From a virus, in the IMG/VR virus record IMGVR_UViG_3300006793_000388, positions 1 to 20,310 of that record: a DNA stretch of 20,310 bases. One strand, 5' to 3'. A model generated the notes under the pieces. That model did no database searches. It worked only from the letters and a program-made list of their open reading frames with translations, and was not told the DNA's origin. Within the stretch, counting starts at the first letter, position 1. Every line of letters starts with the position of its first letter. The position numbers and the translations under genes are program-made. This document shows, in pieces, positions 1 through 19,389 of the stretch.

Positions 1-2700
1 CACCCCTGCTAAATTAACATTATCAACGTGGTAGTAATTAGAATTTGAAGTGCCGTCATTGGTGTCAGAGTTTATATGTACGCCCGTACTGTCAATACTG
101 AAAGACGGCTGCTCTAATGTAGGAGACGCTGTGCCGTCAGCACAAGCAAACCTAATTTCGCCTTTAACTCGCCCATCAGTAACACCAGTACCGTCATCTT
201 TAATAGAAACACCGATGCGAGCGTAGTCTTTTTGCACCCCATATCTATTATCACCTTCAAAAACTAAAGCACCTAAAACGTCACCGTCATCACCTGCGTC
301 TCCACCGCCATCTCTTTTAAGGCGTATTTCAGGTAAGAAATTCCCGTCAGCAGTAGTAGATTTAACTTCGAGATTACCATTTATCGTGGTGTCACCAGTA
401 GTTAGAGTGTCACAGTCAACCGTACCTGTTACGTCTATGCCTGTAGGTGCAACTGTTAAAACTTTAGTATGGTTAGCTCCATTTTTCACCCACGTTTCGT
501 GCTGGGCTTTTTCAAAGTCCTCAGTAACATCTATTGTTCTAACCTCTGTCCACGCATACTTCGATTGACCAGAGCCAGAACCCGACTCATCATTCATACC
601 GTAATAATTTATTTGGCCTAGCCTTTCACCTACAGCGTCAGCGTGTAAGTTAATAAAATCTAAATCTGGAGATGGGTCAGTGCCGCTACCTGTAGTAGAT
701 ATTGCAACTGTATCTTTACACTCAACCGTACCTGTTACGTCTAAGCTAGAAGCTATATCTACACCTGAACCCGTAGCTTTTAAGGCATCAATGTGTCCGC
801 CGTTATTATTACCAACTCTTAAAATAACTTTTTCGTGCGTATCATCTCCAGCGTGTATTACTAGATTAGTAAGAGGTGAGCCAACACTGTCTGCTTCTGT
901 GTATATTAAGTGCTCGTCATTCTGTGGAGTGCTAGGGTCAGCAAGTTTTATTTTTGAACAAGCAACTGTACCTGTAGTTGTTGTAGATTCACCACCAGTT
1001 AAGTCAATGTAGTCAGCAGTTAGACCGTCAGAAGCGGCAACCGTACCTGTTACGTCTATGCCTGTAGCTGTGGTTTCTAGCGTGGCAGCCTCATCGTTCC
1101 CGTGAGAAATCTTAACTGAACCATCGTCTCCATTGTGGATAAATATCTTGTTTTTATTATTAGCGTTTTTCAGCTCAATGTTCGCGCCTCTAATTACAAG
1201 GTTGCCCGTTCCTACATCTTCAATTACGCTGTGTGAGCCGTTGTGATATATCTCTAAATCTGGAGTCGTAACATTGCCGAACTGTAGCTTGTCGTTATCG
1301 CCTAGCTTGACACCATCAGCAGTTACCGTACCTGTTACGTCTAAACTGCCTGAAATATCTACTCCAGACTGTTTAGTTTCTAACTTAACACCAGTGTTAG
1401 TGCCGCCACCCCAATGCAGAGCAGTTGAGCCACCCTCATTAGCCTGTATTAAAGTTACAGTAGCATTTCCGTTTTGAACTCTAAAATCATCTGCGGCTAT
1501 TCTTAAATTACCACTGCCTGTTTCAGCTATATAAGAGTCAGTTCCATTGAAGTGGAGTTTTAACTCGCTATTGTTCCCAAGCTCAATAAATTCACCGTTA
1601 CCTAACTTCACCTTATCAGCAGTAACCGTACCTGTTACGTCTATGCCGTTATTTGTAGTTTGTAACTTTAACCCCTCATTATCACCATTACGATGATAAA
1701 GCTCTGCCGTTGCATTATCCCAAGCTATTAAATTTGCGTTTGCATCATTTCTTAACGAGCCATTCTGCCCTTTAATTACAAGCGCGCCAGCGCCAGTCTG
1801 CTCAATAACACCGTTACCACCAGTAGCTTCATATATCTCCAACTTACCAGCGGATTCTCCGCCTAAAGTAATTCTTTCGTTATTACCTAGTGCTACACCA
1901 TCAGCAGTTACCGTACCTGTTACGTCTATGCCTGAATCACTAATTTCTAAACGTGAAAGACCATCGTCCACATTAACAAAGCGCATTTTAGTATCTGTAG
2001 TTGCGCCAAAAACATCTACATACCACGCGTTTGAATCATCAACATCTCTCTGGAAGTTTATTTGACCACCCTCACTAGCACCACCTGTAGGGTGTAATGT
2101 TAAGAGGTCAGCAGTAACTGTACCTGTTACGTCAATGCCTGTCTTAGAAACAGTTAAAGACTCTGTGCCGCCCGCAACAACTCTTACTTTGTCAGTTCCG
2201 TCATCATTAGACTGGATAAATAAACTGGTATTAAGACCATCTACGCTCGCATATATTTTGGCTTCGTCTGTACCCTCAGCACTGAATCTAATTTGATCAG
2301 CACAGATAGCCCCTGTAGAAGTAGTTGACTTACCACCAGTTAGGTCAATGTAGTCAGCAGTTAAACCGTCAGAAGCGGCAACCGTACCTGTTACGTTTAT
2401 GCCTGCGCCTGTCTCAGTTAATTTAGAGCTGTCTATCCATTTACTAGAAGCGTTGTCGTATTTAAGTAAAGAGCCGTCAGCAGGGCTAGTTAAATTAACA
2501 TCGAGCATTTCAGACAGCTCATTAGATGCCTGAACCTCAGTGTATTTAGCTAATCTATGACCACCTTTTGTAGAGCCATCGTGAACCCTAACCGTATCGT
2601 TAGTAGTATCGACAGTAAGCTCGCCCTCAGCACCAGTAAAGCCTGTGCCGTCATCGTGCTGCGCTTCTGTGCCTCGTCTTGATTTAATTTCTGTAGCCAT
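1..2700 (-). CDS. Tail fibre / receptor-binding-like protein with DVTGTV repeats (C-terminus beyond window)
   Basis: An open frame of exactly 900 codons starts at ATG 2700-2698 and reaches the left edge without a stop, so the C-terminus is missing. Residues 1 to about 52 (MATEIKSRRGTEAQ, then AEGELTVDTTNDTVRVHDG) resemble the N-terminal virion-attachment domain of the major tropism determinant family. The rest is a chain of 69-105 residue units, each carrying (D/N)VTGTV; eight copies begin near residues 102, 190, 259, 354, 454, 549, 654 and 756. Units contain phrases such as LEIYHNGS and KLHFNGTDSYI, as in trimeric beta-rich fibre shafts. It is the last structural gene seen, after the tail hub, which fits a host-recognition fibre at the tail tip. 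The adhesin tip or chaperone domain would lie outside the window. The fibre role is well supported; the receptor is unknown. Confidence 0.85.
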   Translation of the reverse strand, partial: MATEIKSRRGTEAQHDDGTGFTGAEGELTVDTTNDTVRVHDGSTKGGHRLAKYTEVQASNELSEMLDVNLTSPADGSLLKYDNASSKWIDSSKLTETGAGINVTGTVAASDGLTADYIDLTGGKSTTSTGAICADQIRFSAEGTDEAKIYASVDGLNTSLFIQSNDDGTDKVRVVAGGTESLTVSKTGIDVTGTVTADLLTLHPTGGASEGGQINFQRDVDDSNAWYVDVFGATTDTKMRFVNVDDGLSRLEISDSGIDVTGTVTADGVALGNNERITLGGESAGKLEIYEATGGNGVIEQTGAGALVIKGQNGSLRNDANANLIAWDNATAELYHRNGDNEGLKLQTTNNGIDVTGTVTADKVKLGNGEFIELGNNSELKLHFNGTDSYIAETGSGNLRIAADDFRVQNGNATVTLIQANEGGSTALHWGGGTNTGVKLETKQSGVDISGSLDVTGTVTADGVKLGDNDKLQFGNVTTPDLEIYHNGSHSVIEDVGTGNLVIRGANIELKNANNKNKIFIHNGDDGSVKISHGNDEAATLETTATGIDVTGTVAASDGLTADYIDLTGGESTTTTGTVACSKIKLADPSTPQNDEHLIYTEADSVGSPLTNLVIHAGDDTHEKVILRVGNNNGGHIDALKATGSGVDIASSLDVTGTVECKDTVAISTTGSGTDPSPDLDFINLHADAVGERLGQINYYGMNDESGSGSGQSKYAWTEVRTIDVTEDFEKAQHETWVKNGANHTKVLTVAPTGIDVTGTVDCDTLTTGDTTINGNLEVKSTTADGNFLPEIRLKRDGGGDAGDDGDVLGALVFEGDNRYGVQKDYARIGVSIKDDGTGVTDGRVKGEIRFACADGTASPTLEQPSFSIDSTGVHINSDTNDGTSNSNYYHVDNVNLAGV
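992..1064 (-). repeat. 73-bp near-identical repeat inside fibre gene, copy A
   Basis: This copy matches 2333-2405 at 70 of 73 positions by eye. Two of the three differences are synonymous leucine changes and one swaps Asp for Asn. It encodes DLTGG upstream-reading into ADYIDLTGG and the DVTGTVAASDGL motif. The two copies lie in the same reading frame and orientation. Confidence 0.85.
2333..2405 (-). repeat. 73-bp near-identical repeat inside fibre gene, copy B
   Basis: This is the partner of the copy at 992-1064, same strand and frame, about 1.34 kb away. It spans the first of the eight (D/N)VTGTV motifs in the protein. Such pairs can recombine to add or delete whole shaft units. Confidence 0.85.
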
Positions 2701-3290: not shown

Positions 3291-6200
3291 TCAAACTATT
3301 ACATACGGTTCTTGACCGCCTGACATTTTAGCTCCAACCGTTAATCTTAACTCTAAACCTGAACCAGCTGAAGTGTCAGTGCAGGTTACTATTTGACCGT
3401 TAAAGTAATTCTTATGGCTCGCATCTGCGTAATCACTGCCCGAAGCTGGATTGCTGGTAATTGTAACAGACGTTACGCTGCCACCACTAGCCGTAGCGGT
3501 GAGTGATAAGCCTGTACCCTGACTAGCAGTTACTTCTGAGCCTGATATTGTAGTGTCTCCATTTGCAAAGCCTGTACCAGCCGACAAGATTGAGGCAGAT
3601 ATAAATGGTCTGCTATCTGAATTAACTACCGAATCGGCTGAGATATAAGACTCAGTAGCCCTAACGCCTGTATATGGGTCTGCCTCTGTTCCAGTGCCGC
3701 CACCAGTTGAGTAAGCCGCAACGCCATTAGCTGTAACCTGACCCGTATTTACTGTACCGAATCGGAATTGTTTAGCCTTAATTAAGAACTGCTGATTCTT
3801 ACTATCAAACTTAGTCGATAGAACCTGCATCTCTGTTTGTATCTTTGGCGCACCATATATATCAGTTATGTGCCGAGTAGATAAGTAAAAATGGTCGCCT
3901 GTGGATAACTGGTCATAAGACGCATCTAGTTTAAAAGTACAGGTTATAGGGGTTTTCTTAAACCTATTTAAAAGTCTTTGGCTAATACTGGTAGCAGTTG
4001 AGGTATCTTTTACACCCCAGCCGTATATAACCTTGTTAGACTCCTTACCGTATTCAAATGGAGTTTCTGAGTCAGAGTCGATATTAACGTAAAGGTTTTT
4101 GAATGACTTGGGCTTATCTCTATCCTCTACTGAGTTTCTTTCATTGTAGTAGTAGTAAACGCGAGATACCCTGTCCTTATCTGCCTGTATGAGTTTATAA
4201 CTATCTTCAATAATATGATCGTCAGTAACCGTAACTATTCCAGTAGGGTCTACCTCTGGCGTTTCTGCCCTCATAACTATCTGAGAGCTAAGGTCGTCAT
4301 AAAAGAAATTAACACCAACCATACCGCCTAACTGCGATAGCTGTTTATTAACCTCTTTAGGCTCACTTAGAATAGTGTCGATTCTAAATGTAGATAACCA
4401 GTTATTTTTCTCATCAACCCAAGAATAAACACCACCTGTTGTATTATTACAGGCTTCGGCAGGTACGCCAGCTTGATTAACTAGCAACTCATAAGCAACA
4501 TCGTTAATGGTTACGCCTGTACCGCCACCATCGTATTGGCCGAAGGCTAGGCATTTTTGTACTGCGTCATCAGCATCGTGTGCAGAACTTGTTGTACCCC
4601 ACTCTTTTCGCTTAATAAACGCTATTGCTGCTGTATCAGCATCCCTACCAAACCTTATTATTTCTTCATTTATCCTTAAAAACCCTGAGGTTCCAAACTC
4701 GGATTGTATTTGAGATGCGCTTGCAGTTTGCTCATCTACTTTAACCTCAACAGCTTTTGATGATAAGCCTGTGCTTGACGTGCCGCCAGCAGATACAGTT
4801 AAATCAAACTTATTAGTAGAACTTATTGTTATGACAAAATCTTTATTGTCGATATTTGTAAGGCCAGTTTCTGATATGTAAACAATATCATTATCTGAGT
4901 AATTATGATGGTCGCTTACGCTGACCCTAGCTACACCATTGTGATCTACTACGTCTGTTATTTCTAGCGTTGTATCACTAGCTGCTAAATTAGTCGAAAG
5001 TGATGCGTTAGAAGGCACTGGTACTTTAGCTTTTAACTCATCAGCTAATGTCATCGGGTCTTTACACTTAATAGTTAATACATCGTTATCTAAAAACATA
5101 GAGTCTATAATGTATTTCTTTTTGCCGTCTTGCGCTTGAACAGAGCCATCGTAAGCAACATAACCGTCAAACACTTCAATCGTTCGACCAACGTAATGCG
5201 GATTTCTTGCTAGTAACTTCTCAAAGTAAGTACCCTGATCTGTCGTTATGTAGCTTCGACTGGCTGCGTAGTCATCTGCGCCTGTGTCCGTAGAAACAAA
5301 ATCCCTTAACTTAATAGTGACATTAGAGCGTAAAGATATTCCTTTAGTGGGGACTATCTCAGTAGGCGCACTAGAAACAGATATAAGAGCAGGGTGAGCG
5401 TATTGCTCGATACCTGATAATCTTTCACCCATCTCTTGAGTAAAAATATATTGTCTTTTACCTGAGCTATTTACCCTGTAAGCATCTAGTGCTTGGCAGG
5501 TTTCTCTAGTGTTAAAGCAGGGCAGCCCAGTAGAGTCAGCAGTACATTCGGAAGGAAAAGTATTGCTACCAAAGACATTATCACAAAAGTCTAAAGACAA
5601 CCTAACGTACTGCATAGGCGTTCTAGGCGATAACTTATGTGCGTTTTGAAATATGTTATTAAGAGTTTCTTCAGCGCCACTTGTGAAGTTGACTGTTTTT
5701 GTCATTCCCGTTAATGGCGGGTTATTCCTGTACGGGTGAACTGAGATTGCATCATTGTTATTATCTATACCCGCTTGCATTACATCAGTTATGCCGTCAT
5801 CAGCAGTCTCATTTATAGGAAAATTATATTTTTCTTTTAAATAGCCTTGTATGGCCCACCTATCGTGTCGGCTGAGTAGAGCGTCAAAGATTAACACCTC
5901 ATAAATTGTGCCGCTGCTATCTTCGCCGTCAAGATTTCTCATTAAATTAATAACAACATCGTTGTCTAATTTAATATCGCTTTCTAATAAGCCATAATTA
6001 TTATGGTTATTAACATCTACAGCCTGAAGTGGCGCTGCGCTAATAGAGTCAGCTAAAACTTCAAAAATTGCTGGTGAGTTTTCCGTAACGGTAACAGGGC
6101 TAACAATTTCTTGCGTGTTATCACTGCCATCTTGAAATATAAATCGAGACTCTATCTCATCTCTGTTCGTGGCAATAGGCTGACCTTCACCAGCCTCTTT

Positions 6201-7477: not shown

Positions 7478-10449
7478 TATGAACCCACCAATGCGTTAAT
7501 TTCTAAGCCGTCTTCAGTGGCTTCGTTAATAGCTTCTATGATACGTCTTGCACCTTCAGGGTCAATAGAGCCGTCTACAGTTACATTTATAGCTTGTGGT
7601 GCCTGTACTACTTCTGCCGCTTCAACGGGTTGCACTGGTGCCGACTCTGATGCTGCTCTGCCACCTCCGCCACCGTCACCACCACCACCAAGAGCAACAC
7701 CTATAGTGCCTGACCCGAAAGTAATTGCTGCTGTTTTTAAAGCAAGTGCTTTTGCCGCCTTCATTGCCACTGCTGCTTGCTTAACGCCAACAGCCGCTAA
7801 TTGTGGTTGGGATGTGGCGGCAGCTAACTGCGCATAAGCCGATTTTATACCTGCTGCCTCTATTGCGCCATTTATGAGCACTTTACCTGCACCCATTGCT
7901 GCATCAATAGCTACACCTTTTATGGCAGCAGATTTACCTTCACCAAGACCTTTTTTCAGGTTTTTAGAGACACTTTTAAGCGCCATATTTGAAACTTTTT
8001 CTACTATTTTTCTTTTCTTAATCTCTTTCTTGGTCAAAAGGTCTAATTCTTTTTGTTCCTCTTGAGCTATAATTTCTCTTTTTTCTTCATATTCTTGCTG
8101 TATTCTTTCCATTTTAGCGGTGTGCAAATCTAAAGCTAACTGTGTGCTAAACTCGCCAGAAGCAATCTGCCTATCCATTTCCTCTTGCGCGGCGGTTTCT
8201 TTTAATGCTTTTTCAAATGCAGCAGCTTCTACCAACCTGTTCTGCCTTTCAAGAATGTAAACAGCTACCTGCTCAAGCTCTGCCTCTTGGCTCGCTATAT
8301 TTTCTTCTGTTCTCTCTTGCTTTGCGGCAGACTTTTCATCTGCTTTTTTCTTTGCGTTATCTAACTTTTCTTGGGTATCTTTTTCGTCTTGAATCCTTTT
8401 ATCTATAGAGTCTTGAACAAATTTATCTGCTTCCGCTTGTGCAAGCCTATCTTTTTGTAATTTTATTTGCAGTAAGCTATCTAACTTGCCATACTTTTCA
8501 ACTTGAGCGTTATACTCCTGCTCATTTGCCATTAAAGCAGCATCTAACCTTGTTTTGTTGGCAGAAAACTCTAAGCCTTGGGCTTTTTGTAGCGACTCTG
8601 ATGTTTGTAGTAGCTTTAACTTATTCTTTCTTTCAAAGGCTGCTAATTCATCTGTATTCTTTTTATTTATCTTATCTAGCGCGTCTTGCGCCTGCTCATC
8701 TTCTACCGCAGCCTTAACAAGAGCATCTTCTTTTATTTTTTTTATCTCTGCCTTTATTGTATCTTCACTTCTAGTCCCAGCACCGCCAGAACCTACAGCT
8801 CTAGGGTCGCTTAATAAAAGAGATAGGCCAACAGGTACTTTAATCTTAGAAGTTCTTTCCAGCTCCGCATTTAATTTTGCTAATTTTTCTTCAGGCGTTG
8901 TTATTAGTGAGTCAGCTAAAAATCCAATCACACTAGCAAAAGCACCAACAACAACTGTAGCGAGCTTAGCAAGTCCTGTCACCTCAGCGAAACGCTCACC
9001 TAACAACGTAAAGTTATCTGATAATAAATCGGTTGCGCCAGCAAGCCCTCCACCCTTACCAGCACCACCAACTTGATCAGATAACTTTTCTATAATTATC
9101 GTTTGCGCAGCCAAAAGGTCGCCACTAAACTGTAGCTGCTTAATCTTGTCTGATTCAGCTTGAGTAAAGCTAACACCAGCTCTAGTTAGTGCTGTTAAGT
9201 TTCTTGATGGATCTTCTAAGGCCTTACCAAGCTGCTTAGCGCCCGATACAGCAGTAGTACCCATAACAGCGCCTAAATCTTGGGTTAGTGATATAGCGTT
9301 TCTAAATATATCACCCTGCACAGTTTTAAATGTTAGTAATACTCCTTGCGCCTCTCTCATTTCTGAAGCTGAGGCTAGGGTATCTCTAGCCATCTGCACA
9401 GCCATATCATCAAGAGATTTTGCTGAAAACCCAGCAGTCATTCCTGTAGACTTAACTATAGCCTCAAGTTTGAACATCTGTGTTTCATAGGCAGCAAATA
9501 CCTTCAAAGACTTCATTGCCGCAGCAGCTAAAGTTATGAAAGAAACACCCACAGCAAGACCGCGCACACCCACTCGGTTAAGCCCTGTAGCTATGAATGA
9601 CAATCTTCCTGATAGCCCGTTTAATGGGCCGCTAAATGCAGCAGTTGATGTTGAAGCATTCCTAAAGCCTTCTGAAAGTTTATCAGTTGCACTGGCACCT
9701 TTCTTGGTAGCTTCAGTTAATTTTTCTGCATTTTCTTCGAGCTTTTTCTCTTTTTTAGCTAACTTTTCAGCTTCTTTAGCAGCTTTATTTTTTCTTGAAG
9801 CAGACTCTTTGTAAGCGTTAATCTCAGCTTTACGAATAGCGTTTGCTTTTTTAGTTTCTTCAGACTCTTTTTGCTTATTTTCAGCAGCTTCTTTATTTGC
9901 TTGTGCTAATTCTTTTTGTTTTTGTGCAGCCCTTGTTCTTAACGCATCTTCTTTTTTGGCTGCATCAAAAGCCTTATCCAGAACGGCCTGAGCTTTTTGA
10001 GCCTCCTTTTCTTTGGCGGCTTGAGCTTTTAGGGATGCCTTTTCAATGGCTGTAGATTGTTTTTGTGCGGCGGCAGCAGCTTTATCGGCTGCTTTTTGTT
10101 GAGCAACAGCAGCTTTGACGGCTTCTCGCTCTTGTATTTGAGCTGATTTTTCAGCCGCCTTAGATTTAGCCTCCTCAGCTTTTTGTAAGCTGATAGCCGC
10201 ATCTTTATTTCTTTTTATCTGCTCTTGGTAGGCTTTTATTTCAGCCCTAGCAACTGCTGCACTTATTTTTTTTTGCTCAGAAGCTGCGCTGGCTTTTATT
10301 TTAGACGATGCCTTTATAGCATCATCGCCATCCTTGATTGATCTTGTAACACGTCCAGACTCCTTCGCAAGTTCTTTTAACTCATCATTAGCTTTTTTAA
10401 TTTTTGAAGTGTCTGCTTCAAATATCAGTCTTGCGATTGTGTCTGCCAT
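7477..10449 (-). CDS. Tail tape measure protein (990 aa)
   Basis: This is the longest tail gene downstream of the chaperone frameshift, the standard place for the tape measure that sets tail length and exits with DNA. Residues about 15-260 are rich in Lys, Ala, Glu and Gln and predict long coiled coil. A TMP_2-type core follows, with AMARDTL-like AVQMARDTLASASEMREAQG, LTRAGVSFTQAESDKIKQLQ and SGDLLAAQTIIIEKL. Hydrophobic segments lie near residues 295-315 and 495-518. A second Lys/Glu-rich helical region spans about 570-830, then a Gly-rich linker (about 917-926) and an INVTVDGSIDPEGARRIIEA tail. At lambda's ratio of about 0.15 nm per residue the tail would be near 150 nm (inference). AAAGG lies 8 bases before the ATG, and the start overlaps the end of the chaperone extension. 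Confidence 0.93.
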   Translation of the reverse strand: MADTIARLIFEADTSKIKKANDELKELAKESGRVTRSIKDGDDAIKASSKIKASAASEQKKISAAVARAEIKAYQEQIKRNKDAAISLQKAEEAKSKAAEKSAQIQEREAVKAAVAQQKAADKAAAAAQKQSTAIEKASLKAQAAKEKEAQKAQAVLDKAFDAAKKEDALRTRAAQKQKELAQANKEAAENKQKESEETKKANAIRKAEINAYKESASRKNKAAKEAEKLAKKEKKLEENAEKLTEATKKGASATDKLSEGFRNASTSTAAFSGPLNGLSGRLSFIATGLNRVGVRGLAVGVSFITLAAAAMKSLKVFAAYETQMFKLEAIVKSTGMTAGFSAKSLDDMAVQMARDTLASASEMREAQGVLLTFKTVQGDIFRNAISLTQDLGAVMGTTAVSGAKQLGKALEDPSRNLTALTRAGVSFTQAESDKIKQLQFSGDLLAAQTIIIEKLSDQVGGAGKGGGLAGATDLLSDNFTLLGERFAEVTGLAKLATVVVGAFASVIGFLADSLITTPEEKLAKLNAELERTSKIKVPVGLSLLLSDPRAVGSGGAGTRSEDTIKAEIKKIKEDALVKAAVEDEQAQDALDKINKKNTDELAAFERKNKLKLLQTSESLQKAQGLEFSANKTRLDAALMANEQEYNAQVEKYGKLDSLLQIKLQKDRLAQAEADKFVQDSIDKRIQDEKDTQEKLDNAKKKADEKSAAKQERTEENIASQEAELEQVAVYILERQNRLVEAAAFEKALKETAAQEEMDRQIASGEFSTQLALDLHTAKMERIQQEYEEKREIIAQEEQKELDLLTKKEIKKRKIVEKVSNMALKSVSKNLKKGLGEGKSAAIKGVAIDAAMGAGKVLINGAIEAAGIKSAYAQLAAATSQPQLAAVGVKQAAVAMKAAKALALKTAAITFGSGTIGVALGGGGDGGGGGRAASESAPVQPVEAAEVVQAPQAINVTVDGSIDPEGARRIIEAINEATEDGLEINALVGS

Positions 10450-11119
10450 TGTTTTAGCCTTTCTTCATCTAAGCCTAAAATGGCATCAATTTGCCACCTA
10501 TCGAAAGATTCATTGTATAATTGACAGTAGGCAAGAATATCTTGCAAGCCTACCCTCTCAACCCCCTTTATAATCTTGCAATAACAGTTCCAAGTCTCAA
10601 GCAGTTGAATACTAATTTCAGGCTCATTGAGAAGCTCTTTTGGAGCTTGCCCGCTAATCCTTTCAATAGCTTTCCACTGCTCAAGCCTTGTTGAATTACT
10701 GCCTTTTATCCTGCTATTAGCGTAAAAGACCCATTTGCCAAACTCAATTAACTCTTTGGCTTGGCTTTCGTAAAATTTGCCCTGTCAGCTATAAATAAAT
10801 CAACCTGATCTTTTATGTAAGGCGCTTTAGTGTAAAGCTCTTTACATAATTTTTTTGTAAACTTCTCATCAGTGCCTCTCCAACCTATAGTTGCAGCAAC
10901 AAGAGAGTCTATAGCGAATAAGTCGTCATCAAAATCTTTTTTATTTCTTAACGCCTCTATATACGCTCTTTGCTGTTTTTTTGCCTGATCTCTAAAGATA
11001 GAGGAATCAACACCAACAACCTTGACAAAAAGACCTGTTTTTTTGCCTTGATCGTCAAGTATTTCTAATTCAGACCCAGCATCGTGTAAATCAGTTGTAT
11101 ATAGTTCATTTAATTTCAT
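10425..11119 (-). CDS. Tail assembly chaperone, frameshift product (gpGT-like, about 231 aa)
   Basis: Reading the 123-residue ORF from ATG 11119 and slipping by -1 at AAATTTT (10772-10778) gives a fusion of about 231 residues that stops at TGA 10425-10427, 25 bases inside the tape measure gene. The extension begins YESQAKELIEFGKWVFYANS and ends LKQWQTQSQD; it has no ATG or GTG codon, and in its own frame a TGA lies at 10785-10787, just upstream of the slip site. It therefore cannot be made alone except by an unusual start. In lambda, gpG and gpGT bind the tape measure and the tail tube during tail assembly, and the -1 frameshift sets their ratio. The layout here is the same; the frame is coding by appearance (Trp- and acidic-rich, helical), but slippage has not been shown. 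Confidence 0.85.
10748..11119 (-). CDS. Tail assembly chaperone, unshifted product (gpG-like, 123 aa)
   Basis: This is the normal-frame product between the tail tube and tape measure genes. The sequence (MKLNELYTTDLHDAGSELEI, then WRGTDEKFTKKLCKELYTKA) is mixed helical with a folded N-terminal part, as in siphophage tail assembly chaperones, and does not enter the virion in known cases. It stops at TAA 10748-10750, eight codons after the slippery site. An AAGGGTG Shine-Dalgarno precedes the ATG. It is preceded by a terminator-like hairpin, so it is probably expressed less than the tail tube protein. Confidence 0.85.
   Translation of the reverse strand: MKLNELYTTDLHDAGSELEILDDQGKKTGLFVKVVGVDSSIFRDQAKKQQRAYIEALRNKKDFDDDLFAIDSLVAATIGWRGTDEKFTKKLCKELYTKAPYIKDQVDLFIADRANFTKAKPKS
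10772..10778 (-). promoter_or_regulatory. -1 ribosomal frameshift slippery heptamer A_AAT_TTT
   Basis: The heptamer fits X_XXY_YYZ exactly in the zero frame: GCA AAT TTT, where both tRNAs can re-pair one base back as AAA TTT. It lies in the only window where a shift would work, between the -1 frame TGA at 10785-10787 and the zero frame TAA at 10748-10750. A purine-rich CAGGG sits just upstream. I did not identify a convincing downstream stimulatory structure by eye. Confidence 0.8.
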
Positions 11120-11174: not shown

Positions 11175-12107
11175 TTATAATGATGTGTCGATTGTTAATG
11201 CACCAACAGTGGGGCTAGAAGCTACTGCTACGAAGTCCATAGCTACAGATAGCAAGCCTTCACCACCCACTTCAACAGCACCAGTAGTATATATGATTTT
11301 AGGTAAATCAAACTTAAAGCCAGTAGAGCTAGAGCCAAGCTGAATACTTAGTGCGCTTGCAGTGTTTGCAATAAACTTCTCAAGCAAAACAGAGCTTGTG
11401 AAATGACAAGTCATAGAGCCACTTACACGACACTTACTAATACCACCTTGAATTGGAATAACCGCACCAACAGCGTTGGTAGTTTCTATGCCATTCTCAA
11501 TAGATAAAGAAAGGTCAGTACAAATTGAGTTTGCTGCACCTTCTACGATTACCGCATCAGACGAGTGAAAAGGGTTGTTAGCCTCAATGTAATTCGTGCC
11601 ACCATTGTCGGGGTCACTGTCATTACCAGCAGGTTCAGTCGTCATTGTTGCGCCAACAATACCGATAGAGCACTCAACAAGTCCGTCAGCAGGAATACTC
11701 ATTGAGAAGTTGTTAAACTCGCAACCAGTATAAACGTGTGCGTCATCACCAGCGTCTAAGTCAGTACCAAAATCTTGAACGATAGTGTAAGACTGACGCT
11801 CTGAACCAATTTGCATAAGCCCAGCACTTAACGCATCATCTCCCAAAACTCCGCGCAACATTTCTATGTATGCTGGCTGGTGTGCTAAATCAAAAGATAT
11901 TTCACCTGAAACAGAGTGAGCACCCATAATTACGTCTTGGACTTCACGATTACCCGTAATAACTGCGGATTCGTGATTAGTTTTGGCCAAACTTAAACTG
12001 GCAGACTTAAAAGGAATGATTGTGTAATCAATCCCAGCTACTTCTTCCCCATAAATTGTTTCTTCTTTAAAACCAACTACTACGTTAGTTCCACTTGCAA
12101 TTGCCAT
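11175..12107 (-). CDS. Major tail tube protein (310 aa)
   Basis: The product forms the hexameric rings of the tail tube. Evidence is position (between the tail terminator and the chaperone pair) and composition: a beta-rich, Gly/Ser/Ala-rich chain beginning MAIASGTNVVVGFKEETIYG, which is the typical opening of siphophage tube proteins of the tail_tube family, with SVSGEISFDLAHQPAYIEML and CEFNNFSMSIPADGLVECSI further in. Two related halves (residues about 20-170 and 175-310, each with a strand pattern of the type L.L...N.....) suggest internal duplication; this is tentative. The ATG has one of the best ribosome sites here (AGGAG, 7 bases upstream), fitting high expression. No extra Ig-like C-terminal domain is seen. 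Confidence 0.85.
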   Translation of the reverse strand: MAIASGTNVVVGFKEETIYGEEVAGIDYTIIPFKSASLSLAKTNHESAVITGNREVQDVIMGAHSVSGEISFDLAHQPAYIEMLRGVLGDDALSAGLMQIGSERQSYTIVQDFGTDLDAGDDAHVYTGCEFNNFSMSIPADGLVECSIGIVGATMTTEPAGNDSDPDNGGTNYIEANNPFHSSDAVIVEGAANSICTDLSLSIENGIETTNAVGAVIPIQGGISKCRVSGSMTCHFTSSVLLEKFIANTASALSIQLGSSSTGFKFDLPKIIYTTGAVEVGGEGLLSVAMDFVAVASSPTVGALTIDTSL

Positions 12108-12109
12108 AA

Positions 12110-12643
12110 TTAACTCCTAGCGGGCGTTACCGCATAATAAGATACATCTATATTTCTAACAAAAAATGCACCATCTCTGCGCCCAACGCCTAGTGATACG
12201 TTCAAAATTCTAACGGTAGTACCATTAGCATTAATTTTCATTCCTCTGGTGAAGTAGTTAGCTATACTGTCAACTCGATCAGTAAAGCCACCAACACCAG
12301 TTTTGCTGTAGTAGTCGATCTGAAATAAGCCATCGTGACGCTCTGTTCCAGAAGTACCAATACTAGAGGTACTTGTATCGGCTGGTAGTAAAGTGCCCAC
12401 AACCCACTCAGCATTTAAATTCGTTTTTAAAACATCAGACAAATCAAAGTCTGTGTTTTCATATATTTTATGCGTAATACTTAAATTTGTACCCATAGTG
12501 TTAAAGAGTGACTCAAAGCCAATCCGTATATTTCTGAAAGGCTTGGATAAATCTGGAGCAACACCATCTGTAATAGAGCCAGCATCAATGTTGTAAATGT
12601 CGCCAACAGATGCCTCTGTTATTAAGTTGTAATCAACGCTCAT
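12110..12643 (-). CDS. Tail terminator / DUF4128-like protein (177 aa)
   Basis: This gene sits between the gp10-like gene, which it overlaps by ATGA, and the tail tube gene, the usual place of the tail terminator that caps the tube and joins it to the neck. The N-terminus (MSVDYNLITEASVGDIYNID) is less typical, but SKPFRNIRIGFESLFNTMG and the end DGAFFVRNIDVSYYAV fit the DUF4128 tail-completion family, whose members are of similar size. No enzymatic motif is present. The call rests on family resemblance plus gene order. Confidence 0.7.
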   Translation of the reverse strand: MSVDYNLITEASVGDIYNIDAGSITDGVAPDLSKPFRNIRIGFESLFNTMGTNLSITHKIYENTDFDLSDVLKTNLNAEWVVGTLLPADTSTSSIGTSGTERHDGLFQIDYYSKTGVGGFTDRVDSIANYFTRGMKINANGTTVRILNVSLGVGRRDGAFFVRNIDVSYYAVTPARS

Positions 12644-13029
12644 TTAAAATCCTTAACTGCATTTCTCATAGCTCTACGCATCATACCTGTCGGCGCTCTG
12701 AAACTAGCACCATCTTCTATATCTTTAGCGTAATGTAAAGAGTTGGTAAGGTATATAGAATCTCCAATTTTTGATTTATCTATCTTACTGGTCACTCTTT
12801 CCACACTATCAAAGCTATCTGAGGCTTCTTTACCGTCTGGAAGTCTACCCTCTGTAGAAAAAATTGGAGAAAGAAAGCTCGCAAACCAGCTATTTTTTAA
12901 CTTTCCTGTGTCTACAGGTGTCTTATCAACAGTATCGACCATAGCTGTATTAACAACTTCCTTTACAACCTTGTGTGCATCTTCGAGAGCCACTTTGGTG
13001 TAGTTTTTAACTTCTAAGTCGAAGCTCAT
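12640..13029 (-). CDS. HK97 gp10-like neck / tail completion protein (129 aa)
   Basis: The pattern TPVDTGKLKNSWFAS, then a variable loop, then IYLTNSLHYAKDIEDGAS, then APTGMMRRAM is characteristic of the HK97 gp10 family, which acts at the head-tail interface. Length is normal for the family. Its ATG lies 23 bases inside the head closure gene, and its end overlaps the tail terminator start (ATGA), so the connector genes are translationally coupled. Confidence 0.82.
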   Translation of the reverse strand: MSFDLEVKNYTKVALEDAHKVVKEVVNTAMVDTVDKTPVDTGKLKNSWFASFLSPIFSTEGRLPDGKEASDSFDSVERVTSKIDKSKIGDSIYLTNSLHYAKDIEDGASFRAPTGMMRRAMRNAVKDFK

Positions 13030-13360
13030 AATAAATCACCGTAGTCGCTGGTTGCACTGGTGTAATCTCTATAACTCTGTAGTTTTCACCATTTATCGTT
13101 GCCGTATCACCGATCTTAGGCGGTGTTGCAGAGTACGCAACGGCAGGGAAATCTTTAAATGATAAGGAGTTATCCACTTCTTCATTTTTAATCTGGGCAA
13201 ATAAAACTATGTTCGCATCATAAGTAGTTTGACTACTGGAGCTAACACCCTGCGTAGGGTCGTATGTAACATTGCCATTTCTAGTAAACGTAACAGCCTG
13301 ACCAAACTCAGTGATCATTTTAGTGGCTGTACTTGCTAGTGGTGCATAATCAAAGGCCAT
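13007..13360 (-). CDS. Head closure / head-tail joining protein (117 aa)
   Basis: This small beta-rich protein has the head closure architecture: an N-terminal helix (YAPLASTATKMITEFGQAV), then TFTRNGNVTYDP, a long loop with a variable region, and PPKIGDTATINGENYRVIEI before a final strand (VIYYELRLRS). Similar layouts occur in lambda gpFII-type and SPP1 gp16-type joining proteins. It overlaps the stop of the upstream connector gene by one base (TAATG) and the next gene by 23 bases. Confidence 0.75.
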   Translation of the reverse strand: MAFDYAPLASTATKMITEFGQAVTFTRNGNVTYDPTQGVSSSSQTTYDANIVLFAQIKNEEVDNSLSFKDFPAVAYSATPPKIGDTATINGENYRVIEITPVQPATTVIYYELRLRS

Positions 13361-13635
13361 TATGCCCTCACAACCCTCATAGGGTTTCTAATTAGCTTTC
13401 TAAGCGCCTGTGTAGCCGCAGGAAGCAAAGTACGATCTGCGCTTGAGGATTTATACTCTACCTCTATTTCGCCTATCTTCTCTTTTACAGTCTCTCTGGA
13501 GATGGGGTCGTTAATACCAAAACCCTGCTCAAATCCATATGCCAGCTCGTAAATCGCAACTAACACCTCGTTAGGTATTTCATTACTATCTTTACCAAAA
13601 CCATCAATAACAATTCTGCTTCTAGGCCACTGCAT
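13360..13635 (-). CDS. Head-tail connector (adaptor), C-terminal part after in-frame stop (91 aa)
   Basis: The ATG at 13635 is Met69 of a longer frame that starts at 13839. The segment MQWPRSRIVIDGFGKDSNEI, then PNEVLVAIYELAYG, is the C-terminal half of the phage adaptor/DnaT-like family, which normally carries an N-terminal half ending in RATDYL. That half is coded in frame at 13684-13839 but is cut off by TAA. No Shine-Dalgarno site is visible before 13635, so independent start is doubtful. The adaptor lies between portal and head closure in the neck, where it is generally essential; a full-length product would have about 159 residues. Confidence 0.7.
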   Translation of the reverse strand: MQWPRSRIVIDGFGKDSNEIPNEVLVAIYELAYGFEQGFGINDPISRETVKEKIGEIEVEYKSSSADRTLLPAATQALRKLIRNPMRVVRA

Positions 13636-13683
13636 TGATTGTGTTTCGGTTGCTTTAAGCCCTATGAATGGTAAGGACTCAAA

Positions 13684-13839
13684 TTAATCTGTAGCTCGAA
13701 GGATGTATGCCTCTGCTTGAGCATCACTAATATCTACCCTTCCAACATATCGTGCATTTAAGTAGGCATCGTAATTGGCAACAGTAACATAACTGTTAGC
13801 AGTCGTTGATTGCGAACCTGTTTCTACCGTTAAAGCCAT
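13684..13839 (-). CDS. Head-tail connector (adaptor), N-terminal part ending in TAA at codon 52
   Basis: ATG 13839-13837 has a good AAGGTGG ribosome site. The product reads MALTVETGSQSTTANSYVTV, then ANYDAYLNARYVGRVDISDA, then QAEAYILRATD, then TAA at 13684-13686. This is the familiar N-terminus of phage adaptor proteins, in which the next residue is usually Tyr (RATDYL). The same frame continues after the stop, with FESLPFIGLKATETQSMQWP, through to 13360. A single base change TAT or TAC to TAA would explain the break. Confidence 0.75.
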   Translation of the reverse strand: MALTVETGSQSTTANSYVTVANYDAYLNARYVGRVDISDAQAEAYILRATD

Positions 13840-13850
13840 TTTACCACCTT

Positions 13851-13903
13851 AAAAAAATGGCCGACCTGCAAGGGAAAGGGAGGGAAACCCAAGCAAGCCG
13901 ACC
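13851..13903 (-). terminator. Intrinsic terminator after the major coat gene
   Basis: On the minus strand GGTCGGCTTGC (13903-13893) can pair over 11 positions with GCAGGTCGGCC (13869-13859), three of them G-T wobbles, with a further GGG/CCC pairing inside the loop. An A and seven Ts follow directly (13857-13851). The U-tract runs into the ribosome site of the adaptor gene, so read-through must supply the genes downstream. Confidence 0.72.
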
Positions 13904-13916
13904 AAAAGTTTCTAAC

Positions 13917-15068
13917 TTACTTCAAATGAATGATTGAGCTAATGAAGTCAGGCTTCCAAGCCTTAACGCCCCAAGCTAGTGCTACTTCAATCATAGATTT
14001 ACGGTAGCCTTTGTAGGTGCGAACCTCAAAAACTAAACCTGATCGTGGGTCAGTAACAATCAACGAATCAGTTGCTTGGTCGCCGCCTTCAGGTAAAGCA
14101 GGTGCGCGAACAGCTAATTCCATAGCTCGGCGGTGGAAAGCCAAGTTATGCGTGAAAGTACCACCTTCAGTAGTGATTGCATCGCCATCAGCAGCAGCCT
14201 CTTTAAGGCCTCGACCATTAATGTTAATTAACGTATCGCTAGAGTGGCTATTAACTACATACTGAGTAGCAGTTGAGTCATTAGCAATAGTGATAACATC
14301 ACCGCCAACAAAATCAGTGCTTCCGCCACCAACAGTAAGTGCAGTTTGACCAACCGCTTCTGTAGCATCGATTTCATAACTGCCAGCAGCACTTGAAGTG
14401 TGGATGCTTACACCACCAGATTCACGACAGTTAATGCCGTAGATTGGGAGTAAAATGCCCTGCTCGCGGACAGATGCAGTACCAGCTTCGTTTGCACGAA
14501 CCAGACCAGCAACTTTACGAAGGCTTGCTCCAGCAGCAGTACCCATAACTAAAGAAACATCGTCCATAGGGCAGCCGTTATCAACTAAGCCTTGACGAGC
14601 ATCAGCTACTAAATCAAAGCTGTCAGATGCAAACGCATCAGTAGCGTTATCGCCGTATGCTTGATAAGCGTTTGCTTTACCTTCTGCGTAAAGGTCAGCT
14701 TCAACCTCATTTGCAAGAACTCGCATTGCTTGAGCGATTAAATCACCGTAAACAGTCTCAAAGCCAACACCGTTGCTCAAGTGTTTAGCATCTTCACCTG
14801 TCATAGGAATTTGTACTGCTTTAGATTTTGAGATTGTTAAAATCTTATTATCTACAGTGATGTCAGTTCCTTCTGGAACAGTCATAGACTCATCAACATC
14901 AAACGAAGCAGCAGCTTGAGTAAATGCAGCACGAACAGTGTCACCTTTAGCGGCGCGAACTGAGTCTGAATTCATACTTACAGAAGGGATAAAGCCAGTT
15001 AGCTCTCGGCCAACTGTGTCAGCAGCAGTATAAATATCCGCTGCCAAGTTATCTAATGTGTTAGGCAT
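13917..15068 (-). CDS. Major capsid protein, P22 coat-like (383 aa)
   Basis: The N-terminus (MPNTLDNLAADIYTAADTVG, then RELTGFIPSV) and residues about 38-92 (AAKGDTVRAAFT, TVPEGTDITVDNKILTISKS, IPMTGEDA) match the opening of the P22 coat (gp5) family of HK97-fold proteins. Residues about 225-300 (QTALTVGGGSTDFVGGDVIT and following) look like the inserted beta domain of that family. The C-terminus (RSGLVFEVRTYKGYRKSMIE, then AWGVKAWKPDF) is the usual beta-strand end. At 383 residues it is shorter than P22 gp5 (430). It follows the scaffold gene, has a GGAGAA ribosome site, and is followed by a terminator, all consistent with the main head shell protein. Confidence 0.92.
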   Translation of the reverse strand: MPNTLDNLAADIYTAADTVGRELTGFIPSVSMNSDSVRAAKGDTVRAAFTQAAASFDVDESMTVPEGTDITVDNKILTISKSKAVQIPMTGEDAKHLSNGVGFETVYGDLIAQAMRVLANEVEADLYAEGKANAYQAYGDNATDAFASDSFDLVADARQGLVDNGCPMDDVSLVMGTAAGASLRKVAGLVRANEAGTASVREQGILLPIYGINCRESGGVSIHTSSAAGSYEIDATEAVGQTALTVGGGSTDFVGGDVITIANDSTATQYVVNSHSSDTLININGRGLKEAAADGDAITTEGGTFTHNLAFHRRAMELAVRAPALPEGGDQATDSLIVTDPRSGLVFEVRTYKGYRKSMIEVALAWGVKAWKPDFISSIIHLK

Positions 15069-15089
15069 TTTGGTTCTCCAAAAAAATAA

Positions 15090-15770
15090 TTAAATGATTT
15101 TGCCGCCAGATTTAATGTATTTCATACGCTTTACCGAATCCATTGCATCAAAATCTGATCGACTTACTTGTTTGGTATCCCCAGCCCCGCTGCTTCCACC
15201 TGTTGCGCCACCCCCAGCGGCTTGTGACCCGTCAACCAAAAACGGGTATTCCGCCTTAATTGATTGTGTCAATTCTTCCACACTACTAACGGTCAAGTTA
15301 CCATTAGTATCTAAAACTCGTACCTCACCATCTACCAAAGATAGACGCGAAGATATTTGCTGCGACAACAAGTTGGCTCTGGCTGCATCCTTTGTAAGCG
15401 ATGCGGCAACTTTACTTGCCTGACCTTCCACCTGTTGCTGCTGTAAATTAGCCTTTAAAGTCGCTAACTCGTCAGCCGCCTTCTGTCGCTCTGACTCAGA
15501 ACTGTTGTATAACTGCTCAAAGTCGTTTGCCTTTCTTAGCTTTTCAGCCGTTTCTTGCCTTGCTAGTTCTTCTGCTTCGAGAGCCTTTTGCTGTACCGTT
15601 TTCTTTTCAGTTAGCAATTCGTCAATCTTACGCTTCAAACCACTTACATCTTCTTTCGGTACACCGTCTACATTCAATGTATAGCCATCTTCGCCCTGCG
15701 AATATAACCCCTTAACTGAATCGTCTAACGTATCGAAACTTTCTTCACTCACTTTGTATTGAATAGTCAT
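15090..15770 (-). CDS. Head scaffolding protein (226 aa)
   Basis: The product fits an internal scaffold that guides coat assembly and is then released or degraded. It lies between portal and coat, the standard place. Residues about 40-115 form a strong coiled coil rich in Glu, Lys, Gln and Ala (LKRKIDELLTEKKTVQQKAL). A small folded region follows (LLSQQISSRLSLVDGEVRVL), then a Gly/Ser linker (AAGGGATGGSSGAG), and a short basic C-terminus (MKYIKSGGKII) of the kind that binds coat protein in other scaffolds. No protease motif is visible. The ATG has an AGGGG ribosome site. Confidence 0.85.
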   Translation of the reverse strand: MTIQYKVSEESFDTLDDSVKGLYSQGEDGYTLNVDGVPKEDVSGLKRKIDELLTEKKTVQQKALEAEELARQETAEKLRKANDFEQLYNSSESERQKAADELATLKANLQQQQVEGQASKVAASLTKDAARANLLSQQISSRLSLVDGEVRVLDTNGNLTVSSVEELTQSIKAEYPFLVDGSQAAGGGATGGSSGAGDTKQVSRSDFDAMDSVKRMKYIKSGGKII

Positions 15771-15796
15771 CTATAACCCCTAGTTATAAAAATGTC

Positions 15797-15809
15797 GTCA
15801 CCCTGTGAC
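15797..15809. other. Small hairpin between portal and scaffold genes
   Basis: GTCAC, a 3-base loop, then GTGAC form a perfect 5-bp inverted repeat. On the minus strand it is followed by GACATTTTTAT, so it could act as a weak terminator or an mRNA processing hairpin. The stem is short; confidence is low. Confidence 0.35.
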
Positions 15810-15817
15810 AATTGGTT

Positions 15818-17272
15818 CTATATATCACTCTCATCTTCAGATGTCAAAGACTCTTGATCTTCTTCATCTAATTCAGGCTCAATTTCAGGTTCTTCTGGAA
15901 TTTTCGCCATTTCTGCCGCCAGCTCAGCGTCAATATCTTCATTAGTGCGACCGTCTTTAACAATGCCTTGCTGTCGAGCAAGTTCTTGCATATCAGACTT
16001 CGCAATAATGTTGCCTTCGTTCAACTGCATAGCAGCCATAAGCATTTGTGGGTCTGCAACGTCATCGAAGAACTTAGTGTTTAGGATAAAGGTTGGTTCC
16101 TGACTTGCACCCATAAACATACCGCACCATTCGATGCAGGTCTTAATGCCTTCGGACACATTATCCGCAATAGTAGTTAGGATAGAAGTTTCGCCAGCTT
16201 GCTCGATTAGACTTTGTGTCGCGGTCTTAGCTGCGCCGATTTCAATCATTCTTGCGCCAAGTTTTCGCATTTGCTCTTCTTTGCGAGCCATTAACCTGTC
16301 AGCTAACTGGTTTTCAGAAGCCTGTACAACAGAAAAGCCACCAGAATCACCTAAAAAGTGTCCAGCCATCGAGCCAACGGTAATTCCATCAGGGTTAGCC
16401 TCTTGGAACTGACTTAAGGACATAGTTGATGACACGCCAAGCGTTAATTGACCGTGAACAAAGCAGTTTTCTTCTAAATCGGCTGAATTTCTGTAATGTG
16501 CAATGTTAATGTGGCCAATATCACCAAGTGGCGGTACGTCAACGGTGGTGTCGTTATTTTCTGAGCCAATAATAAACAAAGGGATAAAATCAAACGTAGT
16601 TCCATCGGCTTTTGTCGGGGTATACTCTTTAGTTATATTCTCATCATCTCTATATAACTGTTGTGTATATACACCATTCCTTAAGCGTAAAACTCGGTAC
16701 TGTTTTTGGGGTTCATAGCCAAACTCATCTTTATCTGCGTCATATTCTTCGCAAAGTACGGCTAGGGTTAGGATTTTTTGCCCATTAATGACTTCTACGC
16801 GCCAATTAATGAAGTTTTCAGCAGTGTAGCGGTTGATTGTGGCTTTTGGAGATAATCTATCAAATTCTTCAAGTGATAAACCCGATTCTACTTCGGGGTA
16901 GTCAACTAATAGACAGTGACGACCTTTACCGATGACTTCACCAGCTACATCTTTGGCTAAACTTGTTAAAGACTCGCCAGCACCGTCAGAGTTATCTTTT
17001 AGGTACTCGACTTGAGGTGGGAGTATACATTCAGGTTCATTTCTGAAGATTGCACCTGCTAAACCTTCTTTAGTTTTGCCCGTGAAGTTTACAAAGACGG
17101 CCCGCTCTAAATAATTGATGTAACGAGCGTCTTGGCGGCTAACGCCTTCCATCGGAGGAAGGTATTTAGTGTTAGCTTCTTTAATGGCACGCTGACCTTC
17201 ACAACAGTCCTCGATCATTTGCCATTCTTTAATGTAGGTAGAATACTCTGGGTTTTGTTGTTCAACACTCAT
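15818..17272 (-). CDS. Portal protein, DUF4055 type (484 aa)
   Basis: The product should form the dodecameric ring at the DNA-entry vertex. DUF4055-like features include YIKEWQMIEDCCEGQRAIKE, YLPPMEG, YLERAVFVNFTGKTKEGLAG, IFRNEP, the VIGKGRHCLLVDYPE strand and FIPLFIIGSENNDTTVDVPP. PLGDIGHINIAHYRNSADLE with QLTLGV is the conserved core. The C-terminus is very acidic (about residues 445-484), which may stay flexible inside the head. It starts 2 bases after the large terminase stop with little ribosome site, suggesting coupled translation, and lies in the usual terminase-portal-scaffold order. Confidence 0.9.
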   Translation of the reverse strand: MSVEQQNPEYSTYIKEWQMIEDCCEGQRAIKEANTKYLPPMEGVSRQDARYINYLERAVFVNFTGKTKEGLAGAIFRNEPECILPPQVEYLKDNSDGAGESLTSLAKDVAGEVIGKGRHCLLVDYPEVESGLSLEEFDRLSPKATINRYTAENFINWRVEVINGQKILTLAVLCEEYDADKDEFGYEPQKQYRVLRLRNGVYTQQLYRDDENITKEYTPTKADGTTFDFIPLFIIGSENNDTTVDVPPLGDIGHINIAHYRNSADLEENCFVHGQLTLGVSSTMSLSQFQEANPDGITVGSMAGHFLGDSGGFSVVQASENQLADRLMARKEEQMRKLGARMIEIGAAKTATQSLIEQAGETSILTTIADNVSEGIKTCIEWCGMFMGASQEPTFILNTKFFDDVADPQMLMAAMQLNEGNIIAKSDMQELARQQGIVKDGRTNEDIDAELAAEMAKIPEEPEIEPELDEEDQESLTSEDESDI

Positions 17273-17274
17273 AA

Positions 17275-18513
17275 TTAGATCACAAATCTGAACGGCACAG
17301 CCGCTATAGGTTTAATAATAGGTAGTTCGTGGGCAATAGGATAAGTCGCAGCGTCTATTAAGTGATCTAAACCACTCGTTTTATCGGGGACACCGTTATT
17401 ATCATACGTCAATTGCTCTAAACTACTTGACAATTCAGGACATTGCTCCGAATTTACCATAACTTGCAGTGAATCGAAAGCGGCGTTCGCTGCCATCACT
17501 CGATCTTTGATAAAAGGGTTCTTTTTGGGTGCTCTACACTCAAATCCAGCCGCTTCTAAGAGAGTTATGTCGGATATACTTGCATTAACTGTTTTTCTGC
17601 TCGCGCCAGAGGCATCTGGGTAGATAGCAATGTTGTGGTCGGGGAATTTAGAGTTCAAAGTGTGAATCATAGTCGGGGTATCGTAGATTCCCGTTAATTC
17701 TTTAACTGCGTGATAAACACCTTCACGATAAACGAATACGACAGCAGACATATTGGTTACGTTGAAATCCATTCCGACCATTAGGAAATCAAAGCGCGTA
17801 ATAACCTCTTCGCTCTCATTTTTATCACGGTTGTACCCGTTATATACCGTTCCTTGGGTTAAGTTGACGAATTCACCGTTAAGATAGGCAGATAACAAGT
17901 TACTAGGGTAAATAGCCTTCAAGTTATCCACATAATCGGCAGGAAGGTGCGGATTAGACATAGTTGGGGCTTGGATTAGCTCAAAGCCTTCTCTGGGGTC
18001 TTTTTTCCAGTATTTATAGACGAATTTGAAGCCTTCAGGGGTAGTGGTCACTCCGATTGTATTGGGTTCACCACTGGGTTTGATCTCACGGTTACGAGCC
18101 ATTATTGCGCGGAATGCAGCCGCAGCCTCAGATTCTTTGAGGGTGTCTAATTCGTCAATATCGGCATCTGCGTGGGCGTAACCGATGATTCTGTTGACGT
18201 TTTCCATAGATCGGAAGATGATCTTTCCATAATTGCCTAGATCAATGTAGTTAAGGGGTGATTTATGGAGTTTATAGGGTATTTTGAGTTCGGTGAGGAG
18301 TTCCTCGAAGCGAGGCCACGCAATCATACGAATCAAATCGTAGGTTGGCTCGTAGAAACCCCTATTGGTACTAGGGTTGCGGAGTTTACCGATGATGCAA
18401 CGCTGCACCGCAGCTTCTGTCTTTCCCGCCCCGAAGCCAGCAACTAACGCTGGGAACTTCGCCTTGGTATTGATATAATCGAACTGCGGTTTGGTTGGTA
18501 CTAACTTAGCCAT
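17275..18513 (-). CDS. terL: Terminase large subunit (412 aa)
   Basis: This is the ATP-driven packaging motor with a nuclease domain. The ATPase part shows Walker A at 26-32 (GFGAGKT), Walker B near 115-123 (ADADIDELD, with D120-E121 as the acidic pair), and a coupling motif at 153-161 (IGVTTTPEG). The RNase H-like nuclease part shows MDF at 248-250 (D249), YPDASG at 298-303 (D300) and LDHLIDAATY at 382-391 (D383/D387), the three acidic clusters that bind metal. The length is near the low end for the family but no motif is missing. GGAG lies 4-5 bases from the ATG. It follows the small terminase after a 40-base gap containing a hairpin. Confidence 0.95.
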   Translation of the reverse strand: MAKLVPTKPQFDYINTKAKFPALVAGFGAGKTEAAVQRCIIGKLRNPSTNRGFYEPTYDLIRMIAWPRFEELLTELKIPYKLHKSPLNYIDLGNYGKIIFRSMENVNRIIGYAHADADIDELDTLKESEAAAAFRAIMARNREIKPSGEPNTIGVTTTPEGFKFVYKYWKKDPREGFELIQAPTMSNPHLPADYVDNLKAIYPSNLLSAYLNGEFVNLTQGTVYNGYNRDKNESEEVITRFDFLMVGMDFNVTNMSAVVFVYREGVYHAVKELTGIYDTPTMIHTLNSKFPDHNIAIYPDASGASRKTVNASISDITLLEAAGFECRAPKKNPFIKDRVMAANAAFDSLQVMVNSEQCPELSSSLEQLTYDNNGVPDKTSGLDHLIDAATYPIAHELPIIKPIAAVPFRFVI

Positions 18514-18553: not shown

Positions 18554-18904
18554 CTATTCTGGAGCTACGATTTCGATATTTATGGGTTCAATACGCGATT
18601 GTTGGTCAATATCCATCTTATCGGTCTGACCTAATAGGTTTTTACCTAAGAATATCGCTAATTGGGTGTTTCCATCCATAGCCATCTCTAGCTGTTTGCG
18701 TCTAAGCCCTTTAATGGCTTCAAAGCGACCTCTATCAATGGCAGCCTTGAAATCGGGGTTATTTCTATACCGATCTTCTATAACATCTTCGGAGCAGTTA
18801 AAGAACTTACCCAACTCTATAAAGCTACAGTATGAACGAGATAACTCCTCTACCTCTACTAAGTCAAATTCAATCATAGGTCTGCCGCGTTTACGATCTG
18901 TCAT
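18554..18904 (-). CDS. terS: Terminase small subunit (116 aa)
   Basis: The product should recognise phage DNA and present it to the large subunit. It begins with a basic, AT-hook-like KRGRP (about residues 4-8), then a helix-turn-helix-type segment (CSFIELGKFFNCSEDVIEDR). NPDFKAAIDRGRFEAIKGLR, QLEMAMDGNTQLAIFLGKNL and LGQTDK form the helical and C-terminal parts seen in many small terminases. The size is typical of short small subunits. It lies immediately upstream of the large subunit. The initiation site is weak (only GAG near the ATG). Confidence 0.88.
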   Translation of the reverse strand: MTDRKRGRPMIEFDLVEVEELSRSYCSFIELGKFFNCSEDVIEDRYRNNPDFKAAIDRGRFEAIKGLRRKQLEMAMDGNTQLAIFLGKNLLGQTDKMDIDQQSRIEPINIEIVAPE

Positions 18905-19059
18905 CTCAATTATCCGTTAAAAATTTATGTGGTGTATTACCGCGCCGTCTATATCAATTCCATTCGGTGCACCCCCCCTCTCTTGCTCTCACTGATACCC
19001 GCTAGGCTTTATATGCGCGCGTATACGGGAGAATATCGGGCAAGCAATACGATTAGGCG

Positions 19060-19089
19060 AGTATATAGGGAAATCGCTTAGAAAGGCAA
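19060..19089 (-). promoter_or_regulatory. Candidate sigma70-like promoter for the late genes
   Basis: On the minus strand TTGCCT (19089-19084) is separated by 18 bases from TATACT (19065-19060); an alternative -10, TATATA, gives 16 bases. It lies downstream of the terminator at 19176-19202 and about 155 bases upstream of the small terminase start, where a late promoter is expected. Phage late promoters often need special activators, so this match is tentative. Confidence 0.35.
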
Positions 19090-19175
19090 TGGCGCGTTAT
19101 AGTTAAAAAGGTATTGTGGCGAATGCTCAAATATATATTTTAATGTTTTTGAGTTGATTTGGTTAAATAAAGGGC

Positions 19176-19202
19176 AAAAAAAAGCCGGCAATTAAACCGG
19201 CT
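19176..19202 (-). terminator. Intrinsic terminator after the right-end gene block
   Basis: On the minus strand AGCCGG, an 8-base loop, then CCGGCT form a perfect 6-bp GC-rich stem followed by eight Ts (19183-19176). It ends transcription coming from the small genes at the right before the packaging and structural genes. On the plus strand no T-tract follows, so it works in one direction. Confidence 0.88.
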
Positions 19203-19257
19203 GTTAAGTGTTTTGTTATATGTATTTATCTAATGGTGAAGGTGACAGACTCCAAAA

Positions 19258-19271
19258 AGTTAATGTTAACT
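19258..19271. repeat. Short inverted repeat, possible operator
   Basis: AGTTAA and TTAACT flank a 2-base spacer, a 6-bp perfect dyad in the non-coding stretch just after the small ORF at 19296-19388. It may be chance in AT-rich DNA. Confidence 0.25.
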
Positions 19272-19295
19272 TATCCGTTATCTAACCAGGGGACT

Positions 19296-19388
19296 TTAAT
19301 TGTCATCATTGAACAAAAAGTCAATTGATTGATATATAAAAACACATAACGCAATCATTCCTATAACTTGTTCTATATCAGTTAGCAT
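19296..19388 (-). CDS. Small hydrophobic peptide, unknown (30 aa)
   Basis: The ORF reads MLTDIEQVIGMIALCVFIYQ then SIDFLFNDDN and starts one base after the stop of the gene at 19390-19665. Residues about 8-25 are hydrophobic enough for one membrane span, with acidic ends. GGAG lies 8 bases before the ATG, a proper ribosome site, and a terminator follows about 95 bases downstream. These points support a real gene, although length alone would not. It could be a small membrane protein such as a holin-like or regulatory peptide, but I recognise no family. Confidence 0.5.
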   Translation of the reverse strand: MLTDIEQVIGMIALCVFIYQSIDFLFNDDN

Positions 19389-19389
19389 T

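Follow-up and report, generated by a model that had tools for sequence, protein, structure and literature searches.

An in-frame stop codon in a phage head-tail adaptor gene is most likely an error in a single metagenomic contig

The window analyzed here, a 20,310-base stretch of DNA comprising a whole IMG/VR-type virus record that is probably a fragment, carries genes for the large terminase, portal, major capsid, head-tail adaptor Ad1, head closure Hc1, neck/tail completion, tail terminator, tail tube and chaperone. Profile annotation places the Ad1 gene between the major capsid gene and Hc1, and its neighbors are the normal head and neck set of a tailed phage. The following features, all on the minus strand, define the locus:

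13917..15068, minus strand: major head protein (phrog_283), intact, upstream of the adaptor gene
13360..13839, minus strand: head-tail adaptor Ad1 gene (phrog_477 / PF20557), interrupted at codon 52, defined by translation and profile matches
13684..13686, minus strand: in-frame TAA at codon 52 of the Ad1 gene, defined by translation and the alignment of relatives
13360..13635, minus strand: mechanical downstream open reading frame of 91 aa from an ATG (Met68), taken from the ORF list and not a separate gene
13007..13360, minus strand: head closure Hc1 (phrog_161), intact, downstream of the adaptor gene

Translation of the minus strand from 13839 to 13360 yielded 159 residues with a single internal stop, the TAA at codon 52 (13684-13686), reproducing the frame described in an earlier sequence-only reading of this DNA. 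With X placed at codon 52, the protein matched phrog_477 over residues 1-153 (E 9e-38) and PF20557 ('DnaT_2') over residues 1-158 (E 2e-35; 122.6 bits against a cut-off of 27), and because both matches span residue 52, the two sides of the TAA represent one homologous protein, as that reading had also proposed. A ribosome site, AAGGTGG, lies immediately 5' of the ATG, and the stop of the gene shares one base with the start of the downstream gene. Matched at full length flanking the stop and located where the usual order of capsid, adaptor, head closure, neck/tail completion, tail terminator and tube genes would place it, this is an ordinary phage Ad1 gene, which differs from the family in one in-frame TAA that is limited to the window copy. 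An AlphaFold model of the protein was of low confidence (mean pLDDT 59.9); Foldseek matches to this weak model included several phage necks and adaptors, none of them significant, and a sequence search found no relative of solved structure.

Elsewhere in the window, a slippery heptamer, A AAT TTT, lies on the minus strand at 10772-10778, close to where the tail assembly chaperone gene (10748-11119) ends; a -1 shift there adds an extension of ~115 codons that stops near 10425. This heptamer, present in 11 of the 13 relatives checked, is the usual G/GT-type programmed frameshift. Positions 18905-19389, between the open reading frame at 18554-18904 and the next, form a stretch of ~485 bases devoid of a gene-sized open frame, and positions 1-2700 (minus strand) encode a long fibre-like protein with recurring 'IDVTGTV'-type motifs that runs off the contig end.

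To place the stop among relatives, we compiled 82 distinct homologous genes, combining loci from an IMG/VR protein search with extra loci from a pattern scan. Codon 52 was TAT in 45 of them, TAC in 35 and TTT in two, with no stop in any; residue 52 is therefore Tyr in 80/82 and Phe in 2/82 distinct relatives, in keeping with the Tyr that had been expected of the family. The protein search itself returned 37 related loci, of which 35 extend across codon 52, each with Tyr or Phe at that residue. A degenerate pattern that placed TAA, TAG, TGA or TGG at this codon matched nothing in IMG/VR, as against 89 matches for its Tyr version, and a scan of genome contigs with a pattern permitting TAA, TAC or TAT gave one match, L122. 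The codon-52 stop thus appears private to the window contig among the sampled relatives, in collections that may omit records very near the window, such as an identical twin contig.

The nearest contig, IMGVR_UViG_3300010150_001596 (L002), aligns over all of its 6,476 bases to positions 11889-18364 of the window, with 99.8% identity, 13 mismatches and no gaps. Its adaptor gene is identical to that of the window outside codon 52, where it has TAT in place of the stop, the third base of this codon being the sole difference between the two genes. Over 11889-16008, the two contigs differ at only two positions, and both differences are protein-changing. For the remainder of the window, searches with two tail proteins turned up no near-identical contig, the best match reaching 89% in protein sequence, and the base comparison described below is accordingly confined to 11889-18364.

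We examined the 13 positions that differ from L002 in up to 14 further relatives. At five of these (12493, 13684, 16009, 18226 and 18346), the window base was absent from all sampled relatives; all five private bases are transversions, and three, the stop among them, are non-synonymous. At 16210, 17332, 17344 and 17728, by comparison, both alleles occur among relatives, and all four differences are transitions. Transversions make up 29-45% of the differences between same-group relative pairs at 2.5-6% divergence, giving a probability of ~0.002-0.018 for five of five in what is a post hoc test on five positions only, and codon changes between close relatives are mostly synonymous (139:42 in the comparison with L029). 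Since the private bases are all transversions and three are protein-changing, unlike the variation between close relatives, their pattern suggests base errors. As a side observation, weak and not counted as evidence, the changed base of codon 52 duplicates its neighbor (AAAAT to AAATT on the plus strand), a change that a phasing error could produce.

Single-base breaks also affect essential head genes of other contigs in the group. L004 (IMGVR_UViG_3300046167_000434) has a one-base frameshift at ~3868-3870, near codon 44 of its major capsid gene, which is lacking in its close relative L007 and is probably a contig error, and in L043 the capsid and scaffold-like genes appear to be frameshifted. 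Broken essential genes are therefore a known blemish of such contigs. Two stops flagged in L110 were discarded, as their alignments appear to overrun the true gene ends. A literature search turned up no account of artefactual stops in viral contigs.

Taken together, the absence of the stop from all 82 homologues and the TAT codon of the 99.8% identical L002 support the view that the TAA is probably an error of base calling, or of assembly at low coverage, in one metagenomic contig, the most likely of the explanations considered. While the stop is missing from the sampled relatives and from L002, the further step, to an error rather than a real but doomed recent mutation, is one that we infer.

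Codon 52 would read the same if the viral population contained a genuine, recently arisen nonsense mutant. Under this explanation, which we consider possible but rather unlikely, the mutation would be very recent, its 51-residue product inactive, and the phage genome either defective or rescued by co-infecting intact phages. One base change is enough to create the stop, an intact near-identical genome exists in L002, and the explanation is compatible with everything in the sequence alone. However, the adaptor gene should be essential, given the role of neck adaptors, and such genomes should be rare, the all-transversion private bases fit errors better than replication mutations, and the remaining genes of the window show no sign of breakage, which also leaves the decaying prophage that had been suggested earlier without support.

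Readthrough of the TAA, whether programmed or by a phage or host suppressor tRNA, would yield a full-length adaptor. The sequence 3' of the stop is fully conserved, as this explanation predicts, but a very recent change or an error predicts the same. Published work on orthologous in-frame stops with suspected readthrough, which share with this case the conserved coding sequence flanking the stop, takes recurrence of an identical stop in two or more independent genomes as the mark of a functional one (PMC7918605); here the stop is found in one genome, with none of the 82 distinct homologues and no stop-pattern match in IMG/VR sharing it. Furthermore, TAA closes the tape-measure, tail tube and chaperone genes, as had been noted from the sequence, and in all is the terminator of 12 out of 17 other genes checked, so that its efficient suppression would lengthen many proteins. 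Reassignment or strong suppression of TAA is implausible for this reason, and an alternative code with TAA as a sense codon was rejected on the same count, in line with the earlier judgment that a wholesale code change is unlikely. Searched with ARAGORN, the window yielded no tRNA. An Rfam search for tRNAs, in which 14/14 controls were positive, likewise found none in the window's record and 11 related records, though all of these may be fragments; among 21 sampled loci, 20 had no tRNA, the exception being L095 with one tRNA-Met. Overall, we regard readthrough as very improbable, and its narrower version, a genuine TAA decoded as an amino acid in the host by a suppressor tRNA encoded outside the sequenced fragment, as slightly more improbable still.

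Least credible, with next to no probability, is an adaptor formed from two separately translated chains (residues 1-51 and 68-159): although an in-frame ATG 48 bases past the stop opens the 91-aa frame, this frame is not a separate gene, since its Met68 lacks a 5' Shine-Dalgarno sequence and is Leu in many relatives, and moreover the largely conserved residues 52-67 would be missing, the low-confidence model sets residue 52 within a helix (39-55), and no homologue was found to be naturally split at codon 52, whereas the sequence-only reading had named split homologues as the outcome favoring two genes.

Thus, of the four explanations initially put forward for the interruption, an error or a recent nonsense mutation is supported, while suppression and two chains are not: none of the sampled relatives has the stop, no tRNA turned up in the window or the 11 related records, the internal start is not conserved and lacks a ribosome site, and the homologues are unsplit. 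Recoding, suppression and a split protein are without positive support, and the finding is most likely an ordinary one, revealing no new way to read the genetic code. The phage itself probably has a Tyr codon at position 52 and probably makes a normal adaptor of 159 residues. More generally, the case advises caution: when one metagenomic contig alone shows a stop, near-identical contigs should be consulted before suppression or gene splitting is proposed.
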